Source of the DNA: Planctomycetota bacterium
Lineage (GTDB): Bacteria; Planctomycetota; Planctomycetia; Pirellulales; Pirellulaceae
Assembly: GCA_026692845.1 (NCBI GenBank)
Contig: JAPLNM010000029.1
Location: 1 to 64,000 of the forward strand
DNA: 64,000 nt
Direction: 5' to 3'
Below, in pieces: positions 11 to 16,702 of the stretch; position 1 is the first letter of the stretch, and every line of letters begins with the position of its first letter. Both the position numbers and the translations under genes were made by a program. Below the pieces are notes generated by a model. The model was not told where the DNA came from, did no database searches, and saw nothing but the letters and a program-made list of their open reading frames with translations.

Positions 11-640
11 TCAAACGCCATCGAGGATAGGGTCGGCTAGCACCGTGGACCCTAGGTGCCATGACGAAGTTGTTGATCGCTCTTGCTGCTGAGCGACACG
101 CCGGTATCGCCGACGGGACTCGCAATTGCTGATCGCTTTGATGATCGCATCAGACCCGTGCTCAAGAACCTGTTTTGCCCTCGCAACGCTTGCGCGACCA
201 ACGCTGAGCATTTCGGCGGCTTGATCAATAGTTGGCAGAGTATCAATTGATACTTTGCCTCCTGTATGCTGATTTCCTCTATCGCCACCAGGTCGCAAAG
301 CCGCCAACTTCGCCGCGACCATTGCACGCTGCGATTCGGTCAAGTGCCTTCGATGTAGATTCATCGACAGCACCCACCTGAACGGATCAAAAGAACTATT
401 GCCGCTGTCCTCGATCTCTTCGATTAGAGGCTCGATACCTAGGCCCTGGACGCAACGACGGGATCCTTCGAGGGGAATTCCGAGTTCTGCGGAAACGGTC
501 TCGGACCCCAAAATCGTAAATCCCCAATTTCGTCGAAACTCACGGGGGGGGGTGCGACAGATCGGCGAGGATCGGCGACGGGTAAAGCAAACTTTTCGAC
601 TACCCCCCCGGTATCGACCGGCCGCGCGTACCGCCCCCAA
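11..640 (-). pseudogene. Decayed ParB-like / DNA-binding regulator
   Basis: The frame holds a clear core of the ParB-like regulators common on mobile elements: NLHRRHLTESQRAMVAAK, then a helix-turn-helix segment (IDQAAEMLSVGRASVARAK). The flanking parts lie in other frames. N-terminal-like sequence (FALPVAD, SFDEIGDLRF) is in a second frame, DFGVRDRF in a third, and after HGSDAIIKAI the likely continuation (PVGDTGVSLSSK) is again shifted. At least three frame changes and no proper start make it a pseudogene, last in a minus-strand cassette that begins with the integrase. Sequencing error is an alternative because a run of nine G lies at 544-552. The shifts are seen directly; the family name is recognised from motifs only. 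Confidence 0.6.
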
Positions 641-1103: not shown

Positions 1104-2042
1104 CTACGCCTTACCAACCTGCTTGGGTTTGTTTTTCAATCGCTCCAATTCAGCCTTTGCTGAGTCTCGATTGTACGCCTCTAGCCGCCTGAGGACTTCC
1201 GCGCGACCTCTAGCCGTGGCTTCTGATGCGCTGGCATCGATCCGCCTTTTCAGCTTGTGGACTTCGCTATCAATCATCATGCTTTCTAACTCCTCTTGGG
1301 GCTTGTGTGAGTACCAATTGTGACGACCGTTTATTGAATACTTGGAAAACAGATTCCGACGGTTCAACTTGTCGACCGTGATTTGGGTTTGGCGTGGCGT
1401 CAACGTCAACTCTTTTAGCTTGCCACCAATCTGAGTAACGCTGTTGAATCCCAACGCTAGCGCGTTTATTTGGCTATAGCAGATTCGGACCTTTAACGGA
1501 TGACCGCCTAGCATGGCGTAGATGCCGCAAAGAATCGTCCAATCGCGCCAGTCGAGCTTCTTTTCATTCAAGTCCCAAAATAAATCACGCCTCAATCGGA
1601 CTTGCATATTTCCGCCCTTAAAACCATTGATGAACGAATGCAGTTCGTAAATACTTGACAGATCTACTTCGATACCTGTCGGCCAAACTACGCGTAAACG
1701 ATCCGCTGCTAAAAATACCGCTGCTTGCTGTGGAACAGTCAACGGTTTTTTGGGGTTGTATTTGTACGTTATCCCTTGGTTAGCAATGCGGTTCGATGCA
1801 ACCTGATTTGCATGCTCTCGGCCAGCCTTTACCAAATTCTTTGTGCCGTAGTCTACTAGGCAATAATCAATAATCTGTTGGTGCCTAGAATGTGCTTCGT
1901 CCTCAGTCACTTTGTCGATTTTCTTTCCCATGTTCAACGCCCGAATTGGGAATTGGAAATAGACGTCCTCAGTACCCATGATAGAATTGACCTCGATAGA
2001 TTGACCTATGCCGGACCCATCGCTACCAACGATGACCGGCAT
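1104..2042 (-). CDS. Hypothetical element protein, putative winged-helix DNA binding
   Basis: This 312-residue protein has no named family that I recognise. The N-terminal half is mixed alpha/beta (FPIRALNMGKK; YKYNPKKPLTVPQQAAVFLAADRL). Residues of roughly 165-245 read like a winged helix-turn-helix: a tryptophan-rich helix (DWRDWTILCGIYAMLGG), a helix ending in TPRQTQITVDKLNRRN and a short wing (KYSINGRHNWYS). The C-terminal 50 residues are a charged, probably coiled helix rich in Glu, Arg and Lys. It starts 18 bp after the DUF1580 gene, so the two are probably co-transcribed. A role in replication initiation or element control is inference. An internal Met at 1979 is an alternative start. 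Confidence 0.65.
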   Translation of the reverse strand: MPVIVGSDGSGIGQSIEVNSIMGTEDVYFQFPIRALNMGKKIDKVTEDEAHSRHQQIIDYCLVDYGTKNLVKAGREHANQVASNRIANQGITYKYNPKKPLTVPQQAAVFLAADRLRVVWPTGIEVDLSSIYELHSFINGFKGGNMQVRLRRDLFWDLNEKKLDWRDWTILCGIYAMLGGHPLKVRICYSQINALALGFNSVTQIGGKLKELTLTPRQTQITVDKLNRRNLFSKYSINGRHNWYSHKPQEELESMMIDSEVHKLKRRIDASASEATARGRAEVLRRLEAYNRDSAKAELERLKNKPKQVGKA

Positions 2043-2570: not shown

Positions 2571-3716
2571 CTAGCCGTGTTTTTGGGCAATCTCCAAGGC
2601 TTTGCGCTCGCTCTTTTCGGCGTAGATTTCAGAAGTCGCTAAATGGCGATGCCCCAAAATAAGACTTGCAGACTCGATGCCCTCCGTATCGCGCAGCCTA
2701 GTAGCAACGGCATGGCGCAACTGGTTCGGACTCCACAACGGCAACTCGGCTTTCTTGCATGCGTAGGCAATTGCCCTGCCATAGGATCCGGTCGTAAACG
2801 ACGCTCCTGGTTTCCGCTTCGGGTCTTGCTGCCGATTCGACCCGCGACGATTCCCGCAACTTATGGCGGTGGTTCGTTTCGATGCCCTGATTTGCAACCG
2901 CTGCTCGACCGATTCCGTCGGCGAAAAACAAAATGCATCCTTCGGACGGCCTAGATACGGCTTGAGGATCGCTTGACCCTTTGGACCGACGTAGATTTGC
3001 CGTTTGTGTCCGCGCCATGCGGTTTTATGGTTACTCAGTGTGATCACCCATACCGCGCCGGTCGTTTCGATCATGCCCGGCTTCAACTGGCATAGCTCCC
3101 CTGGACGGCAACCGATGATAGCTTGGAGTCGGACCATATCGGCAACGACAGGACTTAGAAACGGCAACGTCATTTTCACCGTCTTATCGTCAACCGGCTT
3201 GACCGCATCGGCTTCTCTGCATGAGCATCGACCTGCTTTCAAGGGAGCAACACACTTTAGCCCCTGGTGGACAATCGGACTCAAAACGCCCTCGGCGACA
3301 AGCCACTTGATAAAGGCGACGACGCGCCCGCTTTGCCGATTTGCGTAGACCCGTGCCGCATCGCGTTTCACCCAGTAATCTCGAACCGCTTTGAATTGCT
3401 CGATACCAAACTCAGATATGTTCAGGTCGGCGTATAGCTCGATTAGGGGGGTTAGTGCCCTTCGGAAGTTGAATAGCTCCGATTCCCCGTAGTAGCTTTC
3501 GGCATGCTTGAGAAACGCGACGACGGATTCCGCGACACTCTGACGGCTTTTCTCAACCCCGAAGCTAGGGTTTGTCAGATACTCGGCAACCAGCCGGTTG
3601 AACTTGTCTTGGGATTCTTTTGTCCCGAATTCGCCTAGGTAGTAGGTGCGCCCCAAAATACGGCAAATTGCCTGATTTGAGGACTTGTGTAGACGGTAAG
3701 AAGGTAGCTTTTTCAT
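2571..3716 (-). CDS. int: Tyrosine recombinase / integrase
   Basis: A site-specific recombinase of 381 residues from the Met at 3716, which has GGGAG about ten bases upstream. Residues 60-145 form a SAM-like core-binding domain and residues 170-381 the catalytic domain. Visible catalytic residues are R204 (GCRPGEL), K231 (NHKT), R334 in NQLRHAVATR, H356 (LGHRH) and Y365 (SEIYAE). The first His of the usual HxxR box is replaced by N331, as in a number of related integrases. The gene lies beside a tRNA-Met, a classic attachment position, and heads a minus-strand element cassette. A longer frame up to 3764 adds 16 residues with no better start. All core residues are present, so it is probably active. 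Confidence 0.93.
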   Translation of the reverse strand: MKKLPSYRLHKSSNQAICRILGRTYYLGEFGTKESQDKFNRLVAEYLTNPSFGVEKSRQSVAESVVAFLKHAESYYGESELFNFRRALTPLIELYADLNISEFGIEQFKAVRDYWVKRDAARVYANRQSGRVVAFIKWLVAEGVLSPIVHQGLKCVAPLKAGRCSCREADAVKPVDDKTVKMTLPFLSPVVADMVRLQAIIGCRPGELCQLKPGMIETTGAVWVITLSNHKTAWRGHKRQIYVGPKGQAILKPYLGRPKDAFCFSPTESVEQRLQIRASKRTTAISCGNRRGSNRQQDPKRKPGASFTTGSYGRAIAYACKKAELPLWSPNQLRHAVATRLRDTEGIESASLILGHRHLATSEIYAEKSERKALEIAQKHG

Positions 3717-3827
3717 TGGCTGAACTCCCTTTTTGAGTACAATACTCAAAATGCTCACTGACAATTCAGCGCACTAGCAGGGAGCTAGGAACACGTTTTA
3801 CCAACGATTCGCTTGATAGAAACCGAG

Positions 3828-3950
3828 TAGCGAAGGCCGGACTCGAACCGGCGACACACGGCTTATGAAGCCGTTGCTCTAAAGGCCGGACTCGAACCGG
3901 CGACACACGGCTTATGAAGCCGTTGCTCTAACCGACTGAGCTACTTCGCC
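3828..3950 (-). tRNA. tRNA-Met (CAT) with internal 49-bp tandem duplication
   Basis: Read on the minus strand, the gene has acceptor GGCGAAG, D arm TAGCTCAG...AGAGC, anticodon stem ACGGC/GCCGT around loop TTCATAA (CAT) and T arm GCCGG-TTCGAGT-CCGGC. The segment from the end of the D arm through the T arm plus CTT occurs twice in tandem (3882-3930 and 3833-3881). Only the second copy is followed by the matching acceptor half CTTCGCT and discriminator A. Removing one copy gives a normal 74-nt elongator tRNA-Met. CCA is not encoded. With both copies the transcript is 123 nt, and the first copy alone has a broken acceptor stem (CTTTAGA). It is therefore a disrupted gene, an att-site remnant or an assembly error. 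Initiator hallmarks are absent. Confidence 0.8.
3833..3930. repeat. Two exact 49-bp tandem copies inside the tRNA gene
   Basis: Copy one is 3833-3881 and copy two 3882-3930, identical at all 49 positions, with identity running one base past each end. Each holds the anticodon arm, variable loop and T arm. The repeat is 117 bp upstream of the integrase start, so it may also be the integrase core site. Confidence 0.95.
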
Positions 3951-4162
3951 ATCTAACGGACCTATAAAATAAACCGACTCGATCCTGCTGACAAGCCTTG
4001 TTTGGAGCCCCAGGTTCCCCGCAGCCGGGGTTTTAGGGATTGTCCAAACGGCAGAATCCGTCCAAAACGCTCTGTTCGGCTACAATTCGGATACAATTCA
4101 ACCTAGTCGCCACATGACCGTTCTTCCGGTCGTTTGTAGTTTTGCTGCGAGGATCGATTCCT

Positions 4163-15444: not shown

Positions 15445-16702
15445 GACAACTCTCGGACAGATCGATTCCTCAGCGTTAGCGTCCTTTGGGTTGGAGTCCT
15501 CAGCCAGTGAGTCCTCGCATCAGAAGCGACGCATGAGCATCGACGTGCTCCGAGGGATGGTGATGTTTTTGATGCTCGCCGAGGTACTTCATTGGGAGCA
15601 GCTCGCGTCGGCTTCCGACCGATTTTCCGAGCCTGTGCAAAGAGTGCTTCAGTGGATCGTCTTTCATACCACGCACGTCCAGTGGCGAGGCTGTTCTTTG
15701 CACGACATGATCCAACCGGTCTTCTCGTTCCTGGTTGGGACATCGCTTGCATTTTCCTACACCAAGCGGATCGAGCAAGGGCAATCATGGACGCGGATGC
15801 TCATGCATGCGATTGCAAGAAGTTTGATTCTCATCACGCTTGGGATTTTTTTGAGGAGTTTAGGCAAGCCTCAAACGAATTTCACTTTTGACGATACGCT
15901 CACGCAGATCGGGCTTGGGTATGGATTTTTGTTTTTGTTTGGTGGTTGCAAGCAGCTTTCGATTGGCTTAGGGGTCCTGGGGATTTTGTGCACTTACTGG
16001 TCGCTCTTTGCGATTTACCCGTTGCCACCCGCATCGTTCGATTACCCTGCGGTAGGAGTCCCCGATACTTGGCAGCACCATGCTTCGGGTTTTGCCGCCC
16101 ACTGGAACAAAAACAGCAATGCGGCATGGGCATTTGACGTCGAGTGGATGAATTTGTTTCCACGCGAGAAAGTCTACCAATACTCCGGGGGTGGGTATTG
16201 CACGTTGAGTTTCCTGCCGACGCTCGGAACGATGCTTTTGGGTCTTTTGGCGGGCAATTGGCTCCGAGAAGAATCGCAAGCCAGACGTCGAAGTCTCTAT
16301 TTTCTGCTGACCGCAGGGGTGTGTCTTTTGGGGGCTTGGGCGTTGGATGCCTTGGGAGTTTGTCCGTTGGTCAAGCGGATTTGGACACCCAGCTGGACGT
16401 TGTGGAGCGGTGGAATCTGTTTTCTTTGGCTCCTGGTACTCAGTTGGATCTGCGACGATGCTGGGTACATCCGGTGGTCGTACTTCTTCCGGGTTATCGG
16501 GGCCAACTCGATCATCGCTTATGTCATGAGTTGGACGATGGAATCTTGGGTTGGGCAAGCGATCGAGCGGCATTTTGGATTTGCGATAAGGGCGTTGGTC
16601 CCCGAGGTCTACCGCACGTTCGTGCTCGGCTGGCTGATTCTATTGGTTTTCTGGCTGATTCTCGATTGGCTGGCTCGGCGAAAGATTTTCGTACGGATTT
16701 AA
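15437..16702 (+). CDS. HGSNAT/NagX-like membrane acyltransferase
   Basis: This 421-residue, roughly ten-helix membrane protein has the family entry motif MSIDVLRGMVMFLMLAEV, then GCSLHDMIQPVFSFLVGTSLAFSY and FDDTLTQIGLGYGFLF. These match the heparan-alpha-glucosaminide N-acetyltransferase-like (DUF5009/NagX) group, which acetylates amino sugars across the membrane. A conserved His is likely in LHDMIQP. In planctomycetes these genes are common and the substrate is not known; cell-surface or degraded glycans are plausible. The first 32 residues are hydrophilic, and a Met at 15533 is an alternative start. It overlaps the small membrane gene before it. Confidence 0.8.
   Translation: MAKTTLGQIDSSALASFGLESSASESSHQKRRMSIDVLRGMVMFLMLAEVLHWEQLASASDRFSEPVQRVLQWIVFHTTHVQWRGCSLHDMIQPVFSFLVGTSLAFSYTKRIEQGQSWTRMLMHAIARSLILITLGIFLRSLGKPQTNFTFDDTLTQIGLGYGFLFLFGGCKQLSIGLGVLGILCTYWSLFAIYPLPPASFDYPAVGVPDTWQHHASGFAAHWNKNSNAAWAFDVEWMNLFPREKVYQYSGGGYCTLSFLPTLGTMLLGLLAGNWLREESQARRRSLYFLLTAGVCLLGAWALDALGVCPLVKRIWTPSWTLWSGGICFLWLLVLSWICDDAGYIRWSYFFRVIGANSIIAYVMSWTMESWVGQAIERHFGFAIRALVPEVYRTFVLGWLILLVFWLILDWLARRKIFVRI

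Follow-up and report, generated by a model that had tools for sequence, protein, structure and literature searches.

Islander-type islands (PMC4383910) are tyrosine-integrase islands that sit in tRNA genes, and the disrupted tRNA genes treated in PMC3978253 are intron-containing, split or circularly permuted. The locus described here lies in the window, which is the first 64 kb of contig C29 in a draft Planctomycetota genome of 5.24 Mb (182 contigs, 96.2% complete). It resembles the islands in having an integrase beside a tRNA gene, a block of identity over the 3′ part of the tRNA, a displaced 3′ fragment at the opposite end and a host 3′ half replaced by sequence from the element; it differs in its small size, about 4.03 kb, and in the additional 49-bp tandem copy that the assembled gene holds. 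With the disrupted genes it shares parts that are not contiguous in the normal single-copy order, but the order here is 5′ half, repeat, repeat, 3′ end, the duplication is exact, and there is no endonuclease or intron match and no conservation. We rejected membership of the intron-containing, split or permuted class because the defining feature that we tested, a tRNA-splicing endonuclease (PF01974), was not found in this 96.2% complete genome.

The duplicated gene is most likely a recent defect, or else a fault of sequencing or assembly, and not a new kind of tRNA; we read it as an isolated lesion where an element has integrated. tRNA pseudogenes are not expected to fold as working tRNAs, and the window gene is like them in being predicted to lack such a fold: ARAGORN miscalls it as tRNA-Pro(cgg), and the proper T stems of both copies have a pair probability of 0.0 in the predicted RNA. 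It is unlike them in that neither copy shows point decay and that the assembly yielded no second standard gene of this kind. A literature search, which covered subscription papers incompletely, found no report of such an internal duplication for bacterial tRNA genes. Were the duplication both real and fixed, the cell would either read a sole essential tRNA gene through a 49-nt insert or rely on the genus's odd tRNA array as a back-up, and the locus would offer a direct way to learn whether these arrays are functional. If the duplication is an artefact, it is a warning that tRNA integration sites in draft genomes can mimic exotic disrupted tRNAs.

The duplicated tRNA-Met gene and its predicted RNA

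The gene starts with GGCGAAG, and the 3′ strand that pairs with it, CTTCGCT, is followed by the discriminator base (Table 1). Inside it, two 49-nt copies abut directly and are 100% identical, and TRF reports a tandem repeat of period 49 at 3833–3931; the exact 49-bp internal tandem duplication of the original prediction is thereby confirmed. The matching run extends over 50 bases, and the junction therefore carries 1 bp of microhomology. The extra stretch is itself 49 nt of tRNA sequence. The repeated part had been described as the anticodon arm, variable loop and T arm, all of which it contains, and it also takes in the end of the D loop, the D-stem 3′ strand (TAGAGC) and CTT of the acceptor stem. 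Removal of one copy had been predicted to restore a normal 74-nt elongator tRNA; it does give an ordinary elongator tRNA-Met(CAT), with a length of 75–76 nt without CCA. This single-copy form matches the genes of three relatives (G017, G013 and G001) letter for letter, and in two others (G004 and G011) the differences are confined to the last bases. An Rfam scan of the locus returns a partial tRNA at 3882–3946, and at gathering scores the only Rfam family matched in the window is tRNA, with no match to an intron family, including the group I intron. Boxes similar to the promoter-like sequence upstream of the gene were seen by eye upstream of tRNA-Met in G017 (spacing 20) and in G013, G004 and G001 (spacing 17). 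Because the two copies have no differences and this box is still in place, the duplication is probably recent.

Table 1 Coordinates of the duplicated gene, the element and related loci (window positions unless a genome is given)
Feature	Position	Strand	Details
Elongator tRNA-Met(CAT) gene with duplication	3826..3950	-	5′ end 3950, discriminator A 3828, CT 3827-3826
49-bp unit, first copy in gene order	3882..3930	-	abuts second copy
49-bp unit, second copy	3833..3881	-	identical to first copy
Novel junction CTT/TAG	3881..3882	-	1-bp microhomology; TAG side from 10 bp outside attL/attR identity block
Promoter-like TTGTCA-17-TATTTT upstream of tRNA-Met	3966..3994	-	consensus match only
attL core, 46 bp	3826..3871	-	identical to displaced fragment at G000:C32:280-325
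Element arm just past tRNA, CAAGCGA motif	3804..3825	-	putative integrase arm site
Tyrosine integrase, 381 aa from ATG at 3716	2571..3716	-	PF00589 Phage_integrase, E 3.4e-8; phrog_1, E 2.7e-17
DUF1580 protein, 104 aa	2061..2375	-	profile match, E 3.2e-14
312-aa ORF in element	1104..2042	-	family-less in Pfam, PHROGs, NCBIfam
209-aa ORF in element	11..640	-	residues 65-190 match phrog_21315 (unknown function), E 3.7e-10
Exact 120-bp overlap with start of contig C32	1..120	.	element would run on through C32 to attR
tRNA array loci, several genus members	G006 L315 990-5597; G002 L316; G009 L317; also L286, L291, L292		

To place the repeat among others in this genome, we scanned 876 kb (16.7% of the total, with 5 kb counted twice) for exact tandem repeats with units of 25–300 bp, dropping units with strong inner periodicity. 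The tRNA-Met repeat was the sole one with only two copies, and the other five exact loci had 2.3–3.6 copies. A chance repeat was rejected because the 49-bp unit is exact and is the sole two-copy exact repeat in those 876 kb.

The predicted 125-nt RNA has a minimum free energy of -59.4 kcal/mol in ViennaRNA. This fold keeps the acceptor stem, the D arm and both anticodon arms, but its T-arm pairing runs between the copies, from the first 5′ strand to the second 3′ strand. The best fold that keeps a canonical second-copy cloverleaf lies at -51.1 kcal/mol, a cost of about 8 kcal/mol that is only suggestive, as ViennaRNA ignores tRNA tertiary contacts. The tRNA-splicing endonuclease profile PF01974 had no match in the 96.2% complete genome; among control genomes it matched in four of four archaea and none of ten bacteria. 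A degenerate pattern for this Met-type duplication, limited to Met-type anticodon arms, recovers the window itself and had no match in viral contigs or in 84,980 species genomes, two collections that may both lack records of the genome itself or very near ones. Together with the state of the gene in relatives, where the duplication was not found, these results lend no support to the suggestion that the cell removes 49 nt from the transcript.

The integrated element and the tRNA-Met site in relatives

The tRNA-Met gene serves as attL, the left attachment site of a small integrated element (about 4.03 kb). Positions 280–325 of contig C32 repeat, without a mismatch, 46 bp from the 3′ part of the tRNA (GCTTCAT... 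to ...CGCTACT), and the flank beyond them differs from that of the tRNA; this is the displaced fragment, attR. C32 opens with 120 bases that are the reverse complement of positions 1–120 of the window, and we infer from this overlap that C29 and C32 join, which would give an element of 3825 + 159 + 46, or about 4030 bp. Both contigs break inside the element, at the overlap. The integrase ATG is 110 bp beyond the tRNA-Met 3′ end, and the ORF list offers a longer alternative start at 3764. DUF1580 and DUF1598 proteins are encoded near the tRNA-Met locus and point to Planctomycetota, and the DUF1580 protein may be an excisionase or regulator. At E 0.01 none of Pfam, PHROGs and NCBIfam matched the 312-aa ORF, and searches of Pfam and NCBIfam with the 209-aa ORF also returned none. 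An integrase adjoins the tRNA, the opposite end carries the displaced 3′ fragment, and one relative shows an empty site; this is an ordinary, small tRNA-targeting tyrosine-integrase element. The tRNA 3′ half on the element side is complete, and the gene as assembled holds the extra 49 bp. The original prediction that the gene might be att-derived is thus upheld for an attL beside an integrase with a displaced core at the far end, and fails as an account of the duplication; the full 49-bp unit, which it proposed to look for at that end, extends beyond the 46-bp fragment found there.

On C32 (616–1221, minus strand; L049), an ORF is followed by several similar direct repeats; it had no Pfam match at E 0.01, and we take it to resemble a REP-associated (Y1) transposase.

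The empty site is seen in G004, where a single-copy tRNA-Met runs directly into a C32-like flank, with 86.4% identity over 287 bp beyond the core and an alignment that starts at the second base after it. This flank is partly repeat, with stretches that recur at other places in that G004 contig; of these matches, only the one next to the tRNA lies in line with it. In G017, only about six bases past the core agree with C32, and the opposite side is alike over 4 kb at 78%. Integrase homologues adjoin tRNA-Met in five relatives (G002, G005, G012, G018 and G022) in addition to the window genome; the gene is single-copy in all five, and the homologues are broken in G002, G005 and G018. A CAAGCGA-like motif follows tRNA-Met at about the same distance in G002 (CAAGCG), G005, G018, G022 and the window. 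The tRNA-Met gene is thus a recurrent integration target in the genus. The full standard layout is present in G012, with an intact one-copy tRNA-Met, an integrase homologue and, 9.8 kb off, a displaced fragment beginning TTCATAAGCC. Among the four integrase-adjacent regions read, only that of G012 has such a fragment; none was found in the 6–9 kb read around G002, G018 and G022. The first bases of the displaced fragments are TTCATAA in G012 and CTTCATAA in G023, and in G006 the fragment starts where the anticodon stem does; a crossover that reaches out to the D loop is therefore not expected.

The tRNA-Met 5′ half was found, once each, in 22 of 27 genomes of the genus. Twenty of the 22 have one intact copy, and the other two are the window and G021. 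In the remaining five the 5′ half is missing, and in G001 and G011 the gene is within 250 bp of a contig end; the locus is often badly assembled in this genus. None of the 21 other genomes with a 5′ half has the 49-bp duplication, which led us to reject the duplication as a conserved feature of the genus.

Three relatives have tRNA-Met sequences of a different appearance. In G021 (C118:18816–18880; L127, around 2817–2880), the sequence departs from the usual gene after TTCATAA (ACGATAAGCCGTG...), the usual 3′ half was not found in that genome, and CRISPR-like repeats were seen by eye about 500 bp beyond the 5′ half; this looks like another tRNA-Met broken in a draft genome. In G006, a one-contig genome, a 3′ fragment with integrase-like remains (27% over 177 aa) at C1:6361895–6361930 (L093) lies 106 kb from the intact gene (6467974, L094). 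ARAGORN calls a tRNA-Met at this fragment, though the usual 5′ half is missing, and the fragment and gene together are possibly a large island or a relic. In G023, a displaced 3′ fragment is present at C125:1173–1220 (L134) and no tRNA-Met 5′ half was found in the assembly, as expected if the other att site was lost at a contig break.

Origin of the duplication

The 49-bp unit starts 10 bp to the left of the attL/attR identity block, in host sequence that is absent from attR, and ends in the acceptor stem, within the block. One breakpoint of the duplication is thus outside the block in which the crossover can have occurred. The junction CTT/TAGAGC is also absent from single-copy attL, attR, attB and the inferred attP; CTT is always followed by CGCTA and never by TAGAGC in these four, so no mixing of paths through them can spell the junction. 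The outer breakpoint and the single-copy tRNA-Met genes beside integrase homologues in relatives led us to reject a normal integration product, and on the same grounds the duplication does not hold up as an att product. An aberrant product of the integrase, made by mis-paired strand exchange or left by the decay of two elements once stacked in tRNA-Met, would account for a duplication that is exactly at the att site, covers most of the core and has its acceptor-stem breakpoint in the block. The 10 bp of host sequence in the unit count against this as well, and so, within limits, do the five single-copy relatives, as three of them have broken integrase homologues and G012 alone among the four regions read has a displaced fragment; we regard it as the least probable of the explanations considered.

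We consider the most likely explanation to be a recent accidental duplication that is real in at least some cells and damages the tRNA-Met gene, with a probability of roughly 0.5. The gene is the normal single-copy elongator tRNA-Met of the genus, which the small element took as its chromosomal target. Crossing over within the shared block, at some point from the anticodon arm on, exchanged the 3′ half of the gene for the identical copy of the element and carried the former 3′ half to the opposite end of the element, as attL, attR and the empty site of the relative show. Separately and recently, a 49-bp stretch that starts in the D loop and ends in the 3′ strand of the acceptor would have been duplicated in tandem with 1 bp of microhomology, presumably by an accidental event of the slippage or template-switch type. 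The resulting RNA, in which the two T arms are predicted to pair together at the expense of the T loop, should fail as a tRNA. The duplication should be lethal if fixed and without a back-up; cells that carry it would survive only if the population is mixed or an unassembled CAT gene supplies tRNA-Met. It counts against this explanation that the gene hit is the sole standard elongator tRNA-Met found in the assembly, and that the array CAT genes of relatives look odd and accompany an intact normal gene.

An assembly or library artefact is nearly as likely. The cells would then have one copy at attL, and the second would come from chimeric reads, a faulty overlap join or a rare variant that the assembler chose where a mobile-element site is polymorphic; an unmerged-overlap join was considered as one such cause. 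A draft of 182 contigs in which C29 and C32 break inside the element at a 120-bp overlap is consistent with this, as are the poor assembly of the locus across the genus (five of 27 without the 5′ half, and G001 and G011 near contig ends), the perfection of both copies and the expectation that a sole essential gene should not be broken. Other observations are harder to fit to an artefact. No other expected sequence contains CTT/TAGAGC, which makes it probable that the junction was present in part of the reads, and the breakpoints appear to differ from the branch points that sharing among attL, attR and attB would predict. The contig is continuous without N, and the single N run (160) seen across 899 kb points to gaps being written as N, unless it marks a masked stretch. 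The lack of a second exact two-copy tandem repeat in the filtered 876 kb gives no sign of a systematic fault.

It is also conceivable that the sole standard tRNA-Met is truly duplicated and yet supplies tRNA-Met for internal Met codons. The 125-nt transcript could be charged and work with a 49-nt insert in the D loop or T arm, one unit could be removed from the RNA, or loss and gain of one 49-bp copy in the DNA could switch the gene on and off reversibly. In favour of such a functional gene are that the assembly yielded no other standard elongator tRNA-Met, that a promoter-like box is in place, that the outer halves contain all cloverleaf parts and that there is no decay. We think it very unlikely, given that neither PF01974 nor an intron family was matched, that the predicted fold has no T loop, and that the Met-type pattern was found neither in the searched genomes and viral contigs nor at the 21 other loci of the genus. 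Recent accidental duplication remains the reading that we prefer.

Other CAT genes and the tRNA arrays

We looked for other tRNA-Met genes in the assembly with DNA, pattern and CAT-motif searches, which were added after an Rfam tRNA search of the genome had scored 150 of 207 candidates and was not relied on. Two other complete CAT genes were found, one of the initiator type on contig C45 and one of the Ile2 type on C139, an assignment that we take from features such as the 1–72 mismatch. These searches found no other standard elongator tRNA-Met in the assembly. A CAT-to-T-loop motif scan gave 90 places, with no excess over the 107 of a reversed control. ARAGORN was run at 30 of the motif-scan places and 20 chosen ones, partly overlapping, and found no further CAT gene at the motif-scan places checked; the others, except those on C45 and C139, were judged by eye from the matched letters. 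The motif scan also turned up, at C180:5742–5769 on the minus strand (L262, L283), a 3′ fragment of an initiator-like tRNA without its 5′ half, perhaps displaced by the insertion of a different element into an initiator tRNA gene.

Contig C90 carries an array of eight tRNA genes (15541–16437, L282) that ends about 80 bp before the contig end. In the stretches read, the related arrays of G006, G002 and G009 have 37, 31 and 31 ARAGORN genes, respectively, and each includes one or two called CAT genes of 69–71 nt beyond the point at which C90 ends. These arrays hold many short or odd tRNAs, among them a 69-nt CAT gene with a neighbouring second CAT sequence. The array CAT genes look odd, and G002, G006 and G009 all keep a normal chromosomal tRNA-Met intact. 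It is possible that a back-up CAT gene lies outside the assembly, for example in the array past the end of C90. The original prediction had proposed a search for an ordinary tRNA-Met elsewhere in the genome; this search yielded only the initiator and Ile2 types, and the CAT-bearing part of the array of relatives is cut off here by the contig end. At the other end of the same contig (C90:1–8000, L282) are a prenyl diphosphate synthase, identified by NCBIfam, and a rhodopsin-like protein without an NCBIfam match, a set of genes that presumably resembles carotenoid synthesis enzymes and a rhodopsin.
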